A stretch of 43,941 nt of DNA from the NCBI GenBank assembly GCA_022842905.1, contig JALHOS010000012.1:1-43941 (forward strand). Direction: 5' to 3'. Position 1 is the stretch's first letter; each line of letters starts with the position of its first letter. The translations under genes and the position numbers were made by a program. Positions 1 to 9,765 of this stretch are shown piece by piece. This DNA is from Myxococcaceae bacterium (GTDB lineage: Bacteria; Myxococcota; Myxococcia; Myxococcales; Myxococcaceae). Under the pieces are notes generated by a model. That model saw nothing but the letters and a program-made list of their open reading frames with translations. It ran no database searches and was not told where the DNA came from.

Positions 1-136
1 CGAGGAGGCGAAGAAGAACAGGTCGAAGAAGTAGCTGCACGACGGGCTCGTCGGCCGCGGCTCAACTCACCGCGGTCGACGGTCCAGATTTCTGCGGATC
101 TGTGCGACCGCCTACAGGTTGCGCGACTGGTCAAGT
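1..136. other. left edge, no assignable gene
   Basis: Nothing in this stretch can be assigned to a gene with confidence. On the + strand an open frame enters from outside and ends at a TAG at 32-34. It encodes a short Lys/Glu-rich tail (EEAKKNRSKK), which could be the C-terminus of a gene lying to the left. On the - strand an equally open frame leaves the window, so the direction is undecided. Confidence 0.3.
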
Positions 137-496
137 TCAGTCGACAACTGGGACGGTGAGGATCGAACTCATTCCACCGCTACTGACAGCCACCTCCACT
201 CCACTACCGCACTTCGGAGCATTCGGGCTGCAGCTGAGGCTTACCCGCAGAACGCGGGGCCAGGGCCACTGATACATAGCCCCGTCTACGAGCGACCCCG
301 TCGACGAGCGCACTTCGCACAGGCCCGGAGTTCCTTCACCAAAGAACTCAAGCAGCAACTCGACGCTCCCCCCGTCGCGCGAAAGCGACTGTCCCGGAGC
401 GATGGAGAGTGCCAACTTGGGCTGCATCTGGGCAGGCCGGCCGCACGTCAGCAGAGACAAAGCAATGCAAGCACTCACGAACGCAGATGAGTTCAT
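137..496 (-). CDS. small putative lipoprotein at the end of the M16 operon
   Basis: A 119-residue protein of unknown function. The N-terminus is a short hydrophobic segment ending in a lipobox-like LLTC, so it is probably a lipoprotein with Cys near residue 18. The mature part is small, probably beta-rich, and holds a few more cysteines that could form disulfides. The start at 496 was chosen because its ATG overlaps the TGA of the upstream M16 gene (ATGA), the same coupling seen elsewhere in this operon. A longer frame to 580 would run 28 residues into that gene and has no signal-like start. It is the last of four co-directional genes. The function can only be guessed from its partners (envelope, peptidase-associated). 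Confidence 0.6.
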   Translation of the reverse strand: MNSSAFVSACIALSLLTCGRPAQMQPKLALSIAPGQSLSRDGGSVELLLEFFGEGTPGLCEVRSSTGSLVDGAMYQWPWPRVLRVSLSCSPNAPKCGSGVEVAVSSGGMSSILTVPVVD

Positions 497-1683
497 CGGC
501 GCTCCTTCCCGCTCAACACGTAGAGCGGCGCTGCCTCCCACTCGCCCTCCGTGCTGGGCGCATCCAAAGCGCTGAGCCAATTCTCCGCATGCCCATAGAA
601 CTCGGCACGCGACGACCAGGCGGCCAATGTCGCGAGTTCATCAGCAAGTTCGTTCGTCGCGCCCAACATGGACGCAGAATAGCGCAGGCGCCTCGCCACG
701 CTCTGTCGCTCCGCAGGCAACACAGACAATGGAGTCTTCCAGATCTGTACGAGTTCCTTTTTGAGGCTCTCGGCGCGACCAAGCGTAGGCGCGACACCAA
801 TCGTCGCTACGACAGCGTAGCCCCCCATCGGAAAACACCGAGTTCGAAGATCGACGCCGGGCACGCGAATCTCCCGGGCCTGACGAATCGCGAGTATCGC
901 GGCCGCTGACCGGCACAGCGAGATGGCGCTGAGCGGGAGCGGTCGCGCAGTGGCCACGACGAGCGGCGACACCAAGTTCACGCGCCGGTCGAGTTCCGTC
1001 CTAAGGTCTCTGGGCGATCGCCTGGCGCCCGCAAGATCGGGTGTCGGAACACCAGTGAACGTTCGCCGAACTACCCCGACGACGTCATTCAGCGACACAG
1101 GCCCGACGACGACGAGCGCGAGCTGCGGAGGCGCGTAGCGCTCCCGGTAGAACGACCCCACGTCGGACAGCGTCAGGTCCTCACGACTGGCCGCGGTGCC
1201 CACGACTGGCGCGACGTCGCCGAAAAGCCCAGCCTCAATCAGCGCCTGCTGCCAGGCGCCGAGGTAGACCTGCTCTCGCATGACGACCGAGCGCTGATTC
1301 GCAAGCTGGTCCGCCGTGAACCGACCTTCGCTCACGGCCCACAAGAGTTCTCCGAGCCCTTGTTGACAGTCCTCGGCTCGCGTCAACATCGTGAAGACGG
1401 TCGAATCTCGCGACGTCTCGCCATTGAAGACGCCGTGTCCGGACCTCAGTGTGTCTCTTCCGGCTGGTCCAGCGAGGACGAGGTGTTCGACGATGTGCGC
1501 GAGGCCTCCGCGCCCAAACGGGTCTCGATCACTTCCCGCACGCACGACGAATCGCGCTGCGCAGGTGGGAGCCTCGACTCGAGCCACGAGCACGTCCATG
1601 CCGTCGAGCATCGTCTCGCCAGCGACCGGCTCGAGACCCGGGGTCGCGCCCAACGACAACCACAAGGCGATCTCAATCATCAT
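493..1683 (-). CDS. M16 family zinc metallopeptidase (active-type subunit)
   Basis: A 396-residue M16 (pitrilysin/processing-peptidase-like) protein. The inverted zinc motif HIVEH is at about residues 63-67, inside a typical GRGGLAHIVEHLVLAG context. A candidate third ligand, a Glu in VVMREQ, lies about 70 residues later, which fits the family's HxxEH...E arrangement. A hydrophobic N-terminus (MMIEIALWLSLG) suggests export. M16B enzymes work as a catalytic and a non-catalytic subunit enclosing a peptide, and the upstream gene supplies the likely partner. The ATG at 1683 (or 1680) was chosen over a frame from 1776 because it overlaps the upstream stop by only 11 nt and has GGAGG upstream at 1696-1700. 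The natural substrate is unknown. Confidence 0.85.
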   Translation of the reverse strand: MMIEIALWLSLGATPGLEPVAGETMLDGMDVLVARVEAPTCAARFVVRAGSDRDPFGRGGLAHIVEHLVLAGPAGRDTLRSGHGVFNGETSRDSTVFTMLTRAEDCQQGLGELLWAVSEGRFTADQLANQRSVVMREQVYLGAWQQALIEAGLFGDVAPVVGTAASREDLTLSDVGSFYRERYAPPQLALVVVGPVSLNDVVGVVRRTFTGVPTPDLAGARRSPRDLRTELDRRVNLVSPLVVATARPLPLSAISLCRSAAAILAIRQAREIRVPGVDLRTRCFPMGGYAVVATIGVAPTLGRAESLKKELVQIWKTPLSVLPAERQSVARRLRYSASMLGATNELADELATLAAWSSRAEFYGHAENWLSALDAPSTEGEWEAAPLYVLSGKERR

Positions 1684-2872
1684 AAGGTCCAATCGCCTCC
1701 TTGGGCCCGAAACGAAAGGCAAAACGACGCCGGTCGTTGACAAGCATTGAATCGGACCTTTGTTGGTACTCGTCAAGAGGAAACTCCCCCACCAGCTTCA
1801 AGACGTCAGGACTGTACCATCCTGGATCTACTGCTCCTTGCCGGAGTTCCGCGAGTAGCTGCTCGGGCTGCTCCGCGATCAACTGAAGTCGTGCTCCGAC
1901 GCGTCGGCGTGCGGAAGCAAGCATTGGCTCAGTCACCACACGCCCATACAGCCCCCTCAACAGGTCACTGAGCAAGGTCTCGACTTCGGCGCCCGATTCA
2001 TCGAAGGCGGGAACCAAGAGGAGGAGCGTCGTCATTGAAGGCCGCACGAGCAGTCGAGCATCGATCGCATAGGCGAAACCGCGATCGCGAAGCGCCCAAA
2101 TCAATGCGTCAGCGGCAAGCTCCCGGTAGAGGACAAGCGTCACCGCATCGCGCTGGGACAGCCCCCCAAACAACGTGCCGACGACATGAAGATCGACGGG
2201 CGCCCACGTGCTCCACCGCACATTCTGCGCGGGAGGCCGGATGACGTGCTTCGCTTTCGCGCCGCCTACGAGACCCCGCGTCGCGGAAGCGACCGCTCCG
2301 AGGTTGCCGCCACCCGCGACGACGATCCTGGCATTCGCAGGAACGAAGTACTTGAGCGCGTGCTCCTCGACAGAAGAGGCCTGCCACCGCACCGCCCCCC
2401 CGAGCGGCTCGCCGAACAGTTTCGGCCGCAGGAAGTCCAGGATAGCCTCCGCTTCGCTCGGCGCGATCGCGGGCCGCCAGGGCCCCGTCGTATCTTCGAC
2501 AACCGGCGCACCAACGGGCCGGCTCTTGAGCACGGCTCGTAGGAAGGCAGGCGCCAACGAAGAGAGTTCGTCAGAGGGACACAAGAGCCAGATATGCGCG
2601 CTGTCCGCGGACGAAACACCGCCGACAGACGCCCCAACCGCGTCGACGTTGGCGCGCCATCCACTGGGCCACGAGAGGTTGCTGTAGAGGAGCGTTCTCA
2701 GCGCGTGTGACGTTAGCGTTGTGTCTTCTCGCGTTGGAACGTCGAAGCTCACCAGGACGAAGGCCGTACGTGCCTTGGTACCGATCAAGTGCACTTCCGG
2801 ACCCCCAGCCTGAGTGGGCACACCTCGGTACTCCACGGCAAGAACAGCTGCGGCCACCAGCCAAGCGCTCAT
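1673..2872 (-). CDS. M16 peptidase-like protein lacking the zinc motif (probable partner subunit)
   Basis: A 399-residue protein with a signal-like N-terminus (MSAWLVAAAVLAVEY). It has the M16 fold pattern, including the ALRDRGFAYAIDA segment typical of the second M16 domain. No HxxEH motif is visible where the catalytic subunit has it. In known M16B heterodimers (PqqL-like and mitochondrial processing peptidase-like) the non-catalytic subunit shapes the substrate chamber. The gene overlaps its upstream neighbour by ATGA and its downstream catalytic partner by 11 nt, so the products are probably made in step. Pairing is inferred from context and family knowledge, not demonstrated by the sequence alone. 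Confidence 0.75.
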   Translation of the reverse strand: MSAWLVAAAVLAVEYRGVPTQAGGPEVHLIGTKARTAFVLVSFDVPTREDTTLTSHALRTLLYSNLSWPSGWRANVDAVGASVGGVSSADSAHIWLLCPSDELSSLAPAFLRAVLKSRPVGAPVVEDTTGPWRPAIAPSEAEAILDFLRPKLFGEPLGGAVRWQASSVEEHALKYFVPANARIVVAGGGNLGAVASATRGLVGGAKAKHVIRPPAQNVRWSTWAPVDLHVVGTLFGGLSQRDAVTLVLYRELAADALIWALRDRGFAYAIDARLLVRPSMTTLLLLVPAFDESGAEVETLLSDLLRGLYGRVVTEPMLASARRRVGARLQLIAEQPEQLLAELRQGAVDPGWYSPDVLKLVGEFPLDEYQQRSDSMLVNDRRRFAFRFGPKEAIGPYDD

Positions 2873-4623
2873 TGCCCCACCTCCAATGGAACACCTCGAA
2901 GCTTGGCACGCTCGATCGCCAAAGACAGCAGCGCCTCAACGCCTGCGTCGCGCACCGACAATTCTTGCAACAGCAGCAGCCGTGCGCGCCAACTTGGCAC
3001 GCTGTATCCACTGTACAGCTGATGCTCCGCCGCGGGACCGACGAGCTTGGCGCTATCGAGCACGGAAAAACTCCGGCGCAGCACTGGCTCCTGCCAGGCT
3101 CTGATCTCCTTCGCCGAAGAGTCGTACTCGACCCATCGACCATGTGGGAGGCCGCCATCGTAGTCACCGAGCGTCGCAAGCACCCCGTTCTCATGAAAGC
3201 GGCTGAAGGTACCGTGCTTCGTTCCATTCACAACCGAGAAGACCTCCGCCTCGCCTCCGTCCGGTCTCAGGACCCTCATCTGTCCACTCAACTCTCCCTG
3301 AACGTAGGGCTCGACTCGAAGGGACCGGCCCTGCGACTCGACGATCCAGTCGCCATGGCGCCTGCACGCCGTCAGAGCGCCAGTTGCGCGCTCGTGTCCA
3401 AGGAAGACCGTGCCGCGTCCAGTGCAGTTCGCATCGAGCGAACCCCGAAAGACCACGCGCTTTCCATTGAACCCGACGACAGGAACCCCGACGCTCGGCC
3501 CCGCTCCCATGCACGTCTCGAGCGCATCGGCCCCGGCCGCGGGGAACTCGCCGTGTTCGAGCCGGCGTCTCCCGACAGACGTGCGCCGCGGGCATCGCGT
3601 TCCGTCGGCCAACACTTGACCTGGGTCGTTCTCGGGTTCAGCCGTGAGCGCCCAGGGAGCGGCAGCGAGCAACCCGCAGCCCACGGCGGCTGCGAGTCTC
3701 AGTCGGAGGAGGGCCGGAGTGGGCGCCGACCATTCCGACCCGAGTAGCCGCAAGTCCACGGCCGACGCGACCAGTGGGAAGTAGACGGCGACCCAACCTG
3801 CGCTCAGGACCCCCAACGCCAGCGCACCGAGCGTCAGCGCCCACATCGGCCAAGCGAGTCCCAGCTGAGGCGCCAGTTTCAGAGCCAGCTGACTGGTTGG
3901 CATCAACCACGATGCAGCAACTGCCAGATGGAAGCCCACCGTCAAGCGCGTCGAAGTGAGCTCAGGGCCCAGTTTCGTCTTCACCGAACGCCACGTTCGA
4001 ACCGGCGCAAGCAATGCGTTGACCACAAGTATGGCCGCGCTCGCGGGCGTCGATGCCACGTTCGCGATTCGCAGCCAGAGGGTGAATAGAAGTGTGCAGA
4101 GGCCATGAAAGACGACGACCTCCACGCGAGCGGAGAGCTGTGTTCGGACTGACCAGGCGACAGCGTCGATGAATGAGCTCAGAATGGCCCAAACACCTGC
4201 AGCACTCGTCAGTCCGGCCGTCAACCGAAGCGCCAGTGTCGCAACAGGGAGCAGGCCGCCGCCGTCATCCGAACCATCGGCGGCCGTCAGGTCAGCGCGC
4301 TCTGCCGGCTCCACTTGGGCTGGCACTGCGCGCGGTGGCGGGGGCGGTGGCGACGCGGATCGTTGATCAGCCGCGACAGGGGTCGTCACCCGCACCGGTT
4401 TCGCGGCCTGCGGCGCCGAGCTGTCTTCGGACACACCACCGCCGGAAGGAGGAGATCCCCGCTCGAGCTCGATTGGCTGGTTGGCCTCATCGTGAATCGC
4501 CACACCGTCAATCTCATTGCCCAGCCCACACTTGGGGCACTTCGCCGACACCTTCATCTTCGGAATGCGGTCCAGCGCTACCGACTGAGCGTAGCCACAT
4601 CCAACACATCGTATCTCGATCAC
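2869..4623 (-). CDS. zinc-ribbon, multi-pass membrane, MORN-like repeat protein
   Basis: A 584-residue protein heading the M16 operon. Near residue 6 a CxxC zinc-ribbon half (CVGCG) pairs with CPKCG about 20 residues later. A Pro/Ala-rich linker follows, including a run of prolines. Next come about five hydrophobic segments compatible with membrane helices. The C-terminal half contains MORN-like strands (for example GTKHGTFSRFHENGVLATLG and GGLPHGRWVEYDSS). The start is a GTG at 4621-4623: it lies directly before the zinc ribbon and has GGGAGGG six nt upstream, whereas the ATG at 4671 adds 16 poorly fitting residues with no better site. The architecture suggests a membrane-anchored scaffold or sensor for the downstream peptidases. 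The function is unknown. Confidence 0.75.
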   Translation of the reverse strand: MIEIRCVGCGYAQSVALDRIPKMKVSAKCPKCGLGNEIDGVAIHDEANQPIELERGSPPSGGGVSEDSSAPQAAKPVRVTTPVAADQRSASPPPPPPRAVPAQVEPAERADLTAADGSDDGGGLLPVATLALRLTAGLTSAAGVWAILSSFIDAVAWSVRTQLSARVEVVVFHGLCTLLFTLWLRIANVASTPASAAILVVNALLAPVRTWRSVKTKLGPELTSTRLTVGFHLAVAASWLMPTSQLALKLAPQLGLAWPMWALTLGALALGVLSAGWVAVYFPLVASAVDLRLLGSEWSAPTPALLRLRLAAAVGCGLLAAAPWALTAEPENDPGQVLADGTRCPRRTSVGRRRLEHGEFPAAGADALETCMGAGPSVGVPVVGFNGKRVVFRGSLDANCTGRGTVFLGHERATGALTACRRHGDWIVESQGRSLRVEPYVQGELSGQMRVLRPDGGEAEVFSVVNGTKHGTFSRFHENGVLATLGDYDGGLPHGRWVEYDSSAKEIRAWQEPVLRRSFSVLDSAKLVGPAAEHQLYSGYSVPSWRARLLLLQELSVRDAGVEALLSLAIERAKLRGVPLEVGQ

Positions 4624-5052
4624 GAAGCCCTCCCGATGCGTCACGTTAGCACGCCCCCTTCCACCCCCCACTCACAAATGCCCGCAGCACTCGCTACTTC
4701 TGTCCGAGCGTGGCTGCAAAAGTCCCTCGGCGCAGCGTCAGAGACGCACCAGGCGATTGCGCCACCCACGATCGCGCTTGTGTTGTCGAGATGGCCGCCT
4801 GCGCAGTGTGGCCCTCCCCCAACGAGAGGCGTGCTCGCCGCGTACTGCCTTCGCGCGCGGCAGGTGCACCTTGGGTCCCTGGTTCGCCGCCGGCAGCCGC
4901 CGGCCTCGCGGAGTAGTCCTCGCCACCTGTCTGAACAGGCGCGAACGCCGTCTCGGGTCAGCCGAACGGAAGAGCACCACCTGCCAGCCCGTCGAGCACG
5001 GACGGGACCTCTCTGCCCCCGTTCGCCGCGCGCAGCGCACGACGTCTCCCCC
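4624..5052. other. 429-bp intergenic region upstream of the M16 operon
   Basis: No credible gene was found. The reading frames present are arginine-rich or lack start signals, which is typical of GC-rich shadow frames. The region must hold the promoter of the 4623-137 operon and the 3' end of the RDD gene transcript. No -35/-10 pair could be assigned with confidence. Confidence 0.5.
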
Positions 5053-5772
5053 TCACCGAGCGAACAGGACGAACGCCGTCGCCATCACCGCGATCTCCGC
5101 GGCAAAGCCGATGATCAGGGCCACGGCGACGAGCCCTCCCGAAGCCGCGACGGTCGGAGCCACGCTGCCTCGCCGCACGACGACGGTGTCGGCCCAGACG
5201 TCGCCGTGGCGCTGCTGCAGCGGGCTGCCGTCCATTGCGCCCTTGCCGATGAGCCCGAAGAAGAGCGCGTCGACGAAGTAGCCCAGCTCGCGCACGAAAG
5301 CGGCCTTCCAGCTCGGCCGACGCCCGTCGGCGCTCACCACGCGCAGGCCGAGCAGCAGCTTGCCGATGCTGACGCCCGCCAGGCGCACCGAGAACGTCGC
5401 CCCCGCCAGGTGCGCCGAGAAGCCGACGACCATCGACAGGGCGAAGGGCATGTCGAAGCGCGTCGCCCAGCCGGGCTGCGCCGCGCCCGTCTGCTCCAGC
5501 ACCACGAGGACGATCGCCGACACGAGACCAGCGCCGAGGCCCAACACCTGGCTGAAGACGAGCTCGACGAGCCGCCCACCCGCCCGGAGACCGAAGCCGA
5601 CCGCGTGCTCGGGCTGGGGTGGCAGCGGCCCTGCCTTCGCTTCGCACTCCGCGCAGACACCGGCGCGCAGACAGTCGCCACAGCGGAACGTGCCGCAGCG
5701 CGCGCACGGCGTCGCCGGACGCTCGGCGTGCTGCACACAGCGCGGACTGGTCAACCCCACCGGCTCGTCCAT
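5053..5772 (-). CDS. RDD family membrane protein with N-terminal cysteine/histidine finger
   Basis: A 239-residue integral membrane protein. Residues about 12-43 hold CVQH, CARC, CGDC and CAEC, a B-box-like zinc-binding arrangement. The rest is an RDD domain: a first helix beginning GGRLVELV, the family segment SIGKLLLGLRVVSADG, then WKAAFVRELGYFVDALFF, and the closing QQRHGDVWADTVVV. A last hydrophobic helix (GLVAVALIIGFAAEIAVMATAFVLF) ends the protein. RDD proteins are membrane proteins often linked to transport or ion homeostasis. The role here is unknown. The start is supported by a strong GAGGGGGG site just upstream. It is divergent from the TolB/FlgO-like gene. Confidence 0.85.
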   Translation of the reverse strand: MDEPVGLTSPRCVQHAERPATPCARCGTFRCGDCLRAGVCAECEAKAGPLPPQPEHAVGFGLRAGGRLVELVFSQVLGLGAGLVSAIVLVVLEQTGAAQPGWATRFDMPFALSMVVGFSAHLAGATFSVRLAGVSIGKLLLGLRVVSADGRRPSWKAAFVRELGYFVDALFFGLIGKGAMDGSPLQQRHGDVWADTVVVRRGSVAPTVAASGGLVAVALIIGFAAEIAVMATAFVLFAR

Positions 5773-6719: not shown

Positions 6720-6726
6720 CTTTCAG
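6716..6726. other. back-to-back stop codons of a convergent pair (TGA-CTT-TCA)
   Basis: The + gene stops at TGA 6717-6719 and the - gene at 6723-6725, with three bases between them. The dyad CTGA/TCAG spans both stops, and a second weak dyad GCAGT (6710-6714)/ACTGC (6731-6735) surrounds it. It may act as a weak bidirectional terminator, but there is no T tract. Confidence 0.4.
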
Positions 6727-9131
6727 GGGCACTGCGAGAAGGTGCACGGATCGCACAGCGCGTCGATGCGGAGCGACGACCCCTCGCAGCCAATCGGCCC
6801 GCCGCACCCTTGGGTCATGGCACAGCTGAAGCTGCTGGTGCCCGCGCCGTCGTTGGTCGTGATGCTGTAGGGGCCGCCGCCAGAGAAGTAGGTGATGGAG
6901 CAGCCCCGGACCTTGTAGCCGGCCGGACAGCTCCCGCTGAATGGCGTCGTGTAAGGGTTCGCCTGCCCGCATCCGAGGCAGCAGCAGTGGCCGTTGGAGT
7001 TCCCCGGAATCCGCACGGTGCCGCAGTTGAGGTTCACGACGTTGTTGAGGTCACCGCAGTCGGCCCCGGCCCCGTTGCAGCTGAACGCGTCACGAATGGT
7101 GATGCCCAGGAAGGTCGAAGAGTACAGCGGGCCCGAGCCGCCCACGCAGGCGCTGAAGGACGACCCCGCGCAGTACCCGTCGGAGTCCGCGTCATTTCGC
7201 ACGTTGACGAGTTTGTAGCGATCGTTCCGGCCGTCGTCACAGTCGTCCCCGGACGAGCAGCTGGTGCGCCAGCCGGGGTCCGGCGAGTTCCCGGCGCATT
7301 GATTCGTCGCACTGCCGGTACAGTACGTATCGCCGTCGGAGTCGCGCCTGACGCTCAGGGTCTGGAACCGCGCGGCGTCACCGTCGTTGCAGTCATCGCT
7401 GCCGACGCAGCCGCTGGGCAGGCGCCGCCCCGCGTTGGGGGAAGCCCCAGAGCACTCGTTCAGCGCCGCGCCGACACACCGCGTGTCGCCGTCTGCGTCA
7501 GCGCGCACCGAGAGCAGCTGGTAGCGCACTGGGTCCCCGTCGTTGCAGTCGTCCGACGCGGCGCAGGTGGTCGCCAGCCGAGTCCCTGGGTTCGGCCCCG
7601 CGCCTACACACGCGACGTTGGACGCGCCGACGCACCGCGTGTCGCCGTCCGCGTCGCTGCGGACCGTCAGCCGCTGGTAGCGCGCCGCGCTGGTGTCGTC
7701 ACAGTCGTCCGCCGCGTTGCATGCCGTGGCCAGCCGCGCGCCCGTGTTGGGGACGGCGCCGGAGCACTCGCTGCGCGTCGCGTTGACGCAGCGCCCGTCG
7801 CTGTCGGCGTCGGTGCGCACGGAGAGCAACTGAAAGCGCGCGGAGTTCGAGTCGTCGCAGTCGCCCAGCGCTCCGCCGTCGAGCGCGGCGGTGGGGGCCA
7901 CGTAGCCTGCGGGGCAGTTCCCGAAGGACGGCCGCCCCACGTCTGGGCAGAGCATGACGGTGCCTGCGTCGCGCGCGGCGTACCGGTCGCCGTCGGCGTC
8001 CGACAGGCAGGACACGAAGGTCCCCTCGTCGGTGGTCCCGTCGCAGTCGTCGTCGACGCCGTTGCACACCTCCGTCCCCGCGTCCGCAGGCACCGCGTCG
8101 CACGACGGCTGGCCCTGCTGGCACGTCAGCGTGCCCTGCCGCCGACACGCGCCGGTGCCGGACTGGCAGGAGCCACCCAGCGTCACGCAGCGGCTCCCGC
8201 AGACGGTCTGGCCTCCGGGGCAGTTGCAGCTCCCCGTACAGAGCTGGCCCTCGACGGCCGCGCAGAGCGAGCCGCCGTCCGTCGGCGCGTTGTCGACGAC
8301 GGTGTCGCAGTCGTCGTCCATGCCGTTGCACAGCTCGGCGCTGCCTTGCACCGAGCAGCTGCCCCACTCCGAGCCGCCGACCGTCATCTGGCAGGTCTGC
8401 GTTCCGCGGGAGCCACAGCACGGCTGCGTCGAGCCGACCGCTGGACAGCTGCAGCCTTCATTCTGGGTGCCGTTACAGTTCTCGTCCCGCTGCTGCGCGT
8501 CGCACAGCTCGCTGGCCCCGGGGTTGATGTTCCGGCCCAGCCCAGCCGTGTCGTTGCAGTCGTCGTTCGAGGGCGCGGTGCCCGCAGGCGCGTTGCACGC
8601 CTGCCGCGGCTCACCGACTGAGGCGCCGAAGCCGTCGCCGTCCTGGTCGGGGTAGAACGTGCGCAGCACGCCTTCGTCCGTCATGCCGTCACAGTCGTCG
8701 TCGCGGCCGTTGCATGCCTCCTCCGTCGGCTCGACGGCCTCGGGGCAGGCCGCTTCCCAGGCCCCGGCGATGCAGCGCTGGGTCCCCTTCCGGCAGACGC
8801 CGACCATGTCCTTGTCCACCGGGCCGCACGGGCGCGTCTCGCCCGCGCCGCAGTCACCGCGCTGGCACTGGTAACAACCATCACCCGCGGTCGTGTTGCC
8901 GTCGTCGCAGCCTTCACCTGGATCGACGCGGCCGTTGCCGCAGCCGACGGTGTCTGCCGCGACGCAGCGGCACACCTGGCGGCCGTCTTCTTGGCCCACG
9001 CTCGGCACCAGCGGGTCCGGACAGGCTCCGGAGGCCGAGCAGAGGCCGTTCTGCAGCGCGACGCCGTCGTTACACGTGGCGAGCACCGCTGCCGAGACGA
9101 CGACGAGACCCCACGAGCGAAAGCCGAGCAT
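6723..9131 (-). CDS. MopE-like cysteine-rich, Asp-rich repeat lipoprotein
   Basis: An 802-residue secreted protein. The N-terminus has a hydrophobic run and a lipobox (VLATC, Cys20). Residues about 63-89 (CGNGRVDPGEGCDDGNT...) match the Myxococcus cysteine-rich repeat (DUF4215-type). Metal-binding motifs of the MopE type (CNGxDDDCDG) follow near residues 140, 268 and 356, plus a DQDGDG stretch. From about residue 424 comes a block of five ~52-residue repeats, then a unique Cys-rich C-terminus. Known MopE-like proteins are surface or secreted metal-binding proteins. A calcium- or metal-bound surface role here is inference. The start at 9131 was chosen for its signal peptide; the open frame continues to 9551 without signal-like sequence. 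Confidence 0.85.
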   Translation of the reverse strand: MLGFRSWGLVVVSAAVLATCNDGVALQNGLCSASGACPDPLVPSVGQEDGRQVCRCVAADTVGCGNGRVDPGEGCDDGNTTAGDGCYQCQRGDCGAGETRPCGPVDKDMVGVCRKGTQRCIAGAWEAACPEAVEPTEEACNGRDDDCDGMTDEGVLRTFYPDQDGDGFGASVGEPRQACNAPAGTAPSNDDCNDTAGLGRNINPGASELCDAQQRDENCNGTQNEGCSCPAVGSTQPCCGSRGTQTCQMTVGGSEWGSCSVQGSAELCNGMDDDCDTVVDNAPTDGGSLCAAVEGQLCTGSCNCPGGQTVCGSRCVTLGGSCQSGTGACRRQGTLTCQQGQPSCDAVPADAGTEVCNGVDDDCDGTTDEGTFVSCLSDADGDRYAARDAGTVMLCPDVGRPSFGNCPAGYVAPTAALDGGALGDCDDSNSARFQLLSVRTDADSDGRCVNATRSECSGAVPNTGARLATACNAADDCDDTSAARYQRLTVRSDADGDTRCVGASNVACVGAGPNPGTRLATTCAASDDCNDGDPVRYQLLSVRADADGDTRCVGAALNECSGASPNAGRRLPSGCVGSDDCNDGDAARFQTLSVRRDSDGDTYCTGSATNQCAGNSPDPGWRTSCSSGDDCDDGRNDRYKLVNVRNDADSDGYCAGSSFSACVGGSGPLYSSTFLGITIRDAFSCNGAGADCGDLNNVVNLNCGTVRIPGNSNGHCCCLGCGQANPYTTPFSGSCPAGYKVRGCSITYFSGGGPYSITTNDGAGTSSFSCAMTQGCGGPIGCEGSSLRIDALCDPCTFSQCP
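7094..7864 (-). repeat. five ~156-bp in-frame tandem repeats in the MopE-like gene
   Basis: Each unit encodes about 52 residues: DCxD, then ARxQxLSVRxDADxDxRC, then a short Cys-containing turn and NxGxRLxxxC. Unit starts at residues 424, 476, 528, 580 and 630 give periods of 52, 52, 52 and 50. The last unit diverges after DADSDGYC. The units differ enough that the array looks old rather than recently expanded. Confidence 0.8.
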
Positions 9132-9222
9132 GACGGACGGCTCTAGCGGAGGCGGACTCCGCGGGACAAGGGCCCTCGCCCTGCCGACGCTCGACCGCAG
9201 CAGCGCCAACGCCTCGCTCTGG

Positions 9223-9765
9223 TCACCGGCACCCGACGAGGCGCGCGACGTCGTAGCGGCGCTGCACGGTGCGCACGGGCCGGGTGCTGAGGAACACCGG
9301 CAGCCGCGGCCCGGGCGGTAGCCGCTCGAGACAGTCGCCCGCGGGTTCTTCGATCGTGGCGGTGACCTGTCCGACCAGCTCGACGCGGAGCAGCTCGCCG
9401 GATCGCTTCCGTGCGTAGACGACGGTGGCCTCGCCGCTGGAGCCGCGCTGCTGCCAGTCGATGGTGACTGGACCCGTCGCCGAGACGAGCGCGCCGGTCT
9501 TGGCGAAGGCGCGGCGCGCGGGCACGTCCACCACCGCGGAGGTGCCGTCACAGAGCGCCAGCGTGAGTGGCGGCGCGTCGTCGCCGCAGGACTCGAAGCC
9601 CAGCGGGGTCGGGCTGCAGCTCAGCGGCGCGGCGTCTTCCTCGGCGAGGACCTGATCGAGCGCCGCGGTGAAGCTGCGGGCGTTCTGCTCCTTGGCCGCG
9701 GCCAACCGCGCGTGGGCACAGCCGAGGCCCAGCCAGAGCGTTCCCCACAGAGCGAAGCGGAGCAT
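9223..9765 (-). CDS. hypothetical lipoprotein
   Basis: A 180-residue protein of unknown function. The N-terminus MLRFALWGTLWLGLGCAHA is a signal peptide with a lipobox ending GLGC, so the mature protein should start at Cys16 and sit in a membrane. Two further Cys pairs (PLSCSP/FESCGD and LALCDG/GDCLER) could form disulfides. The rest looks like a beta-rich domain with no family I recognise. It lies between the barrel-candidate gene upstream (85-bp gap) and the MopE-like gene downstream (91-bp gap), all on the - strand, so they may share transcription. The start at 9765 is set by the signal peptide; a long upstream extension of this frame is an artefact of GC-rich overlap. Confidence 0.65.
   Translation of the reverse strand: MLRFALWGTLWLGLGCAHARLAAAKEQNARSFTAALDQVLAEEDAAPLSCSPTPLGFESCGDDAPPLTLALCDGTSAVVDVPARRAFAKTGALVSATGPVTIDWQQRGSSGEATVVYARKRSGELLRVELVGQVTATIEEPAGDCLERLPPGPRLPVFLSTRPVRTVQRRYDVARLVGCR

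Follow-up and report, generated by a model that had tools for sequence, protein, structure and literature searches.

What does a pair of M16 peptidases share with the membrane protein encoded directly upstream in the same operon, and which part of that protein ties the three together? This question is raised by a locus at one end of contig JALHOS010000012.1 (assembly GCA_022842905.1) from a member of the Myxococcaceae. In the following, the complete stretch of 43,941 nucleotides that was analysed is termed the window.

Organization of the operon

Base 1 of the window is the start of the contig, and close to it four genes, termed A, B, C and D, are arranged in this order on the minus strand (Table 1). 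The four open reading frames and their overlaps of 4, 11 and 4 nucleotides had been reported in the initial annotation and were confirmed at the same positions. The start of gene A may alternatively lie at an in-frame GTG at position 4671. Gene C begins with ATGATG, and use of the second ATG as start would shorten its overlap with B to 8 nucleotides, while the junction between C and D is ATGA. On the plus strand, bases 2-34 translate to EEAKKNRSKK followed by a stop codon and resemble the end of a converging gene; D is therefore probably the last gene of the operon.

Upstream of the operon and on the same strand, an RDD-family membrane protein is encoded (positions 5053-5772, minus strand; Pfam RDD, E = 1e-11) that has an N-terminal Cys-rich, B-box-like stretch. 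Positions 6723-9551 (minus strand) encode a large, putatively secreted protein in which DDDCDG-type Asp/Cys repeats are numerous. The GC content amounts to 0.643 for the operon (window 1-4600) and to 0.698 for the rest of the window. Foreign base composition was rejected as a general argument, since the related loci described below do not show a trend towards lower GC.

Table 1. Positions of the genes, gene junctions and protein parts treated in this work. Positions without a locus designation refer to the window.
Feature	Position	Strand	Remarks
Gene A (membrane anchor protein, 584 aa)	2869..4623	-	GTG start at 4623; zinc ribbon (CxxC..CxxC) at the N-terminus, then Pro-rich linker, several TM segments, MORN sheet and the tail at the C-terminus
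MORN-like beta-sheet part of A	3043..3606	-	invariant Cys pair C344, C371 just past the last TM segment
C-terminal tail of A (about 50-56 aa)	2872..3042	-	GxTxxWWxxRL...RAxxxG; window version GYSVPSWRARL...IERAKLRG
A/B junction, ATGA, 4 nt	2869..2872	-	stop of A and start of B; kept in 8/8 co-directional loci
Gene B (M16B pseudo-subunit, 399 aa)	1673..2872	-	no HxxEH; invariant R262/Y268
B/C overlap, 11 nt	1673..1683	-	ATGATGATTGA
Gene C (M16B catalytic subunit, 396 aa)	493..1683	-	H63-x-x-E66-H67 and E137
Gene D (small lipoprotein, 119 aa)	137..496	-	lipobox-like LLTCG; overlaps C by 4 nt; not conserved at other module loci
Gene N	L030:5060-5689 (-); L025:11281-12054 (+); L029:11666-12298 (+); L113		
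Retron-type reverse transcriptase	L024:212-1732 (+); L028:4012-5436 (+); L100:5928-7433 (+)		PADLOC RT_XIII, E = 7e-158 for the L024 copy
Degenerate locus (genome G183)	L098:6972-8641		tail lipoprotein and single M16 gene
Remnant (genome G048)	L100:7447-8338		tail fragment and part of C

The M16 pair

Among the products of the four window genes, C alone passes the Pfam cut-offs (Peptidase_M16, E = 3e-8; M16_C, E = 6e-6). It carries the zinc-binding motif as HIVEH and matches solved M16B and MPP-beta chains in a phmmer search of the PDB. Residues H63, E66 and H67 of this motif and E137, the third ligand further downstream, are invariant in 10/10 aligned C proteins, the exception being the degenerate copy at locus L098, and the same ten proteins share two invariant cysteines. 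A two-domain M16 fold is predicted for C from its sequence, with a divergent C-terminal half. B and D from the window lack Pfam matches; orthologues of B match Pfam M16_C. NCBIfam adds nothing but weak matches for the window proteins. HxxEH is found in none of the B proteins, and R262/Y268 are invariant in 11/11 of them. A structural model of B (mean pLDDT 78, pTM 0.80) most closely resembles the M16B protein 3ami from Sphingomonas (Foldseek E = 4e-18, TM 0.66) and TTHA1265. The proposal that the operon encodes one inactive and one active M16 member thus agrees with the motif content of B and C.

In the heteromeric peptidase PttP1/PttP2 the R/Y pair and HxxEH belong to different subunits, and mutation of either motif leads to reduced or lost activity; Sph2681/Sph2682 exhibit the same division between their subunits (PMC8960859). 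B and C bear this signature of a bacterial M16B heterodimer, and both heterodimer formation and peptidase activity are predicted. Orthologues of B and C start with signal-peptide-like sequences, and those of window B and C are short and weak.

Exchangeable and constant parts of protein A

The features by which protein A had originally been described are faint in the window protein itself. Its N-terminal CxxC...CxxC stretch matches Pfam Zn_ribbon_4 with an E value of 0.0076 and its MORN_2 region scores E = 0.055, both below the cut-off. MORN_2 reaches E = 2e-10 in one orthologue, and MORN scores above the curated cut-off in A from L026 (40.1 vs 29.6 bits). In addition, a MORN sheet is present in the model of the C-terminal domain of A, and MORN1 crystal structures are its best matches in the PDB. 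MORN repeats are modules for protein-protein interaction (PMC7725318).

An alignment of full-length A proteins, with TM segments and topology assigned from hydropathy and charge and not by a trained predictor, revealed different front parts. An N-terminal zinc ribbon and several TM segments are present in A from the window, L024, L026, L028 and L032. The proteins from L025, L029 and L030 have TM segments and an internal TFIIB-type ribbon, which scores above the Pfam cut-off in L025, and in L022 and L023 a TPR-like N-terminus with one TM segment takes the place of the zinc ribbon. The N-terminal zinc ribbon is hence not conserved across A proteins. The MORN part is likewise not common to all members: A from L031 comprises only one TM segment, a Pro-rich linker and the tail, and the tail-bearing protein at L098 is a small lipoprotein, neither of them with MORN. 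Since both parts are swapped or absent in some members, zinc ribbon and MORN were rejected as defining features of the partner. What stands of the zinc-ribbon/MORN membrane partner put forward in the initial annotation is the coupling of a membrane protein to the M16 pair. Nor did this protein prove to belong to a well-known, unrelated family; A fits no known family, and no Pfam family spans its whole length.

The constant element of A is its C-terminal tail, in which G, W, R, R-A and G are invariant and for which neither window A nor its orthologues yielded a match to a Pfam family. The tail is predicted to fold into a two-helix hairpin (helices 203-217 and 221-236 of the modelled domain), preceded by a linker that is predicted to be disordered or flexible (pLDDT 32-63). 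The A protein from L031 was recognised by the tail profile alone (E = 2.5e-8), and the end of its tail coincides exactly with the start of B.

Synteny and co-occurrence of the tail with B

A search for B in 145 genomes of the order returned 12 genomes, including that of the window. Of the 11 others, 10 have a detectable homologue of A immediately adjacent to B; C is present in 9 of these 10 too, the contig of L023 ending inside B. In the eleventh relative, L031, the direct search revealed C, and the tail profile revealed A. Conserved synteny in Myxococcota relatives, which the initial annotation had named as a check, indeed exists: the order A-B-C and the ATGA overlap between A and B recur, though A is only 19-26% identical. 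The arrangement of these three genes, in the following referred to as the module, varies in its junctions. B and C do not overlap in L028, L029 and L030, and A is divergent from B-C in L024, L026, L027, L028 and L032, with a gap of 59 bp in L024.

The tail profile identified 13 of the 145 genomes at E ≤2e-17 plus a remnant in G048. Extension to 195 Myxococcota genomes added G160 and G183 from other families; both were located by the tail alone, and in both the tail directly precedes M16 genes. B and C come after the tail in G160, where the A/B junction is again ATGA. The B profile singles out 13 members in the same 195 genomes (324-618 bits), all other M16 proteins scoring at most 98 bits, and a gene for the tail adjoins B in 13/13 of these genomes. 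Tails occur without B in three genomes, namely G097 (contig edge), G048 (remnant) and G183 (degenerate locus). The tail and the B subfamily co-occur one-to-one. A scan of 84,980 species genomes with B, which relies on short patterns that divergent members would escape, gave four matches, all from Myxococcota genomes already found.

At the degenerate locus of G183 the gene for the tail lipoprotein overlaps by GTGA with the single M16 gene behind it; B is absent, and DMTAH replaces HxxEH. The remnant in G048 consists of a tail fragment and the C-terminal half of C, which suggests that the module was lost in that genome.

Gene D, gene N and the mobility of the module

The four-gene unit that had been proposed is reduced by these comparisons to a conserved core of three genes, A, B and C. 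Gene D does not have a counterpart at the other module loci; its matches are weak (E = 4.5e-5 at best) and correspond to parts of open reading frames of about 800 codons in several genomes of another genus. D was therefore rejected as a member of the module.

The flanking genes of the module in Myxococcus are adjacent in relatives lacking it. The empty site in L143 (1486|1498) corresponds to 5003|10417 in L030 and delimits a sharp 5.4-kb cassette composed of the module and a divergent gene, N, for a secreted Cys-containing protein of about 209 residues. N lies beside the module in L030, L025 and L029, i.e. in Myxococcus and a sister genus, and was otherwise detected with confidence only in G044, where the module is located at another place. 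All four confident carriers among the 145 genomes also possess the module; the majority of module loci, that of the window among them, lack N. The module is a mobile gene set, present sporadically (13/145 genomes of the order) and restricted to some myxobacteria in the data examined. Three genomes of a single genus carry a retron-type reverse transcriptase gene adjacent to the module or to what remains of it; this neighbour is not conserved. PADLOC did not yield a match for A, B, C or N, and a conserved substrate gene was not found near the module.

A proposed membrane-tethered M16B peptidase

As the best explanation we propose, with a probability of roughly 0.6, that the locus encodes a heterodimeric M16B zinc peptidase of the periplasm that is tethered to the membrane by docking onto the tail of A. 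C would supply the catalytic zinc site, and B, as a pseudo-subunit, would form the other half of the clamshell and contribute the substrate-binding R/Y pair. A would be the dedicated membrane partner, with an exchangeable cytoplasmic N-terminal part (a zinc ribbon here, TPR in others) and a C-terminal part in the periplasm, from which the hairpin on its flexible linker would reach B/C. In this way A would keep the peptidase on the inner membrane and might possibly couple it to a cytoplasmic signal. B and C are probably exported: the signal-peptide-like starts of their orthologues, the position of the last TM segment of A before MORN part and tail, and the invariant cysteine pairs of both A and C, which fit an oxidising compartment, all point to the periplasmic side. 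From the genetic evidence we infer contact of the tail with B/C, since the tail, unlike all other parts of A, persists in every member, once even beside an M16 gene devoid of the zinc motif. Points against this reading are the weak N-terminal starts of B and C in the window, the B/C junctions that lack an overlap in L028, L029 and L030, and the absence of a conserved substrate gene near the module. The role in peptide processing initially envisaged is plausible by analogy with the M16B family.

The retention of the tail on a small lipoprotein at L098, beside an M16 gene that is the only one there and carries DMTAH, also speaks against the tail as a mere substrate. A hairpin following a disordered linker could plausibly be cut by an M16 peptidase, and genes for proteases and their substrates are often coupled, such that the pair might cut the tail or the flexible linker and thereby release or mature the periplasmic MORN domain of A. 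In L031, however, no domain beyond TM segment, linker and tail would be available for release, and we consider this reading rather unlikely. That the genes merely became neighbours by chance, a common M16 pair having come to lie behind an unrelated membrane protein, might be put forward in view of the 13 M16_C matches in the genome of the window. Such chance adjacency is extremely improbable and was rejected on the basis of synteny and of the co-occurrence of tail and B: gene order and ATGA overlaps are conserved, and the one-to-one association persists across unrelated genomic contexts.

Other alternatives concern the targets of the peptidase. The YwqK antitoxin family is among the MORN_2 proteins. 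This link, the sporadic occurrence (13/145), the clean presence or absence of the 5.4-kb cassette including N in Myxococcus and the remnant in G048 would suit an accessory cassette for competition or immunity, in which an anchored peptidase destroys periplasmic peptide toxins or signals and N acts as partner, toxin or immunity factor. On the other hand, PADLOC did not recognise any of the four proteins, N is missing from most module loci including the window, and a recurring toxin or phage context is lacking, the retron being an unconserved neighbour in some genomes of one genus; we therefore judge this interpretation unlikely. A speculative and distinctly unlikely idea sees in the module a mobile system of the periplasm: an exchangeable sensor in the cytoplasm, connected through the membrane anchor and its conserved hairpin for docking, would hold an M16B peptidase that destroys or processes peptides from rivals, prey or kin, with N as a partner in Myxococcus. 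Several well-studied bacterial pairs with R/Y and HxxEH subunits process or degrade peptides, and B/C could accordingly mature a secreted, RiPP-like peptide in the manner of AlbE/AlbF, PqqF/G or PttP1/PttP2, its precursor being encoded elsewhere or in a small open reading frame that was missed. Genes for a precursor, a radical SAM enzyme or a lanthionine synthetase were, however, not noticed beside the module, and B/C appear to be exported, whereas the AlbE/F and Ptt pairs are cytoplasmic, rendering this explanation very unlikely.

The tethered peptidase that we favour bears on a family in which no function is known for most of the bacterial M16B pairs. The M16B subfamily described here is matched one-to-one by a partner that is anchored in the membrane or by a lipid and carries a short, unnamed candidate docking element, which suggests that a dedicated adaptor can fix M16B peptidases at the membrane. 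The clean presence or absence of the module among Myxococcus species provides natural knock-outs for a search for the substrate.

Comparison with known systems

A search of the literature on M16 peptidase operons in Myxococcus, and on MORN in combination with periplasmic M16 metallopeptidases, returned nothing, and a search of an M16 review did not reveal a tail-bearing membrane partner of an M16B pair. FusC and PqqL are also periplasmic M16 peptidases. In contrast to B/C with their two chains of about 400 residues and a membrane anchor, they are single chains of about 900 residues tied to iron acquisition, and a TonB-type gene was not noticed beside the module. MORN proteins of the MORN_2/YwqK type resemble A in the MORN sheet of its putative periplasmic part; the sheet is, however, missing from the L031 and L098 members, and the tail is foreign to MORN families. 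The subtilosin operon with AlbE/AlbF likewise combines a pseudo-subunit and an HxxEH subunit with membrane proteins and differs from the module in its radical SAM enzyme and precursor gene and in that A lacks a whole-length Pfam family. With the heteromeric peptidases Sph2681/Sph2682 (3amj/3ami), TTHA1264/TTHA1265 (7v4y) and PttP1/PttP2, B/C share the division into HxxEH and R/Y subunits; they differ from these peptidases as a separate, divergent subfamily that always occurs with a membrane- or lipid-anchored tail protein. By sequence criteria, B/C would therefore belong to the known heteromeric kind of M16B peptidase, and the new part is the dedicated, tail-bearing partner.
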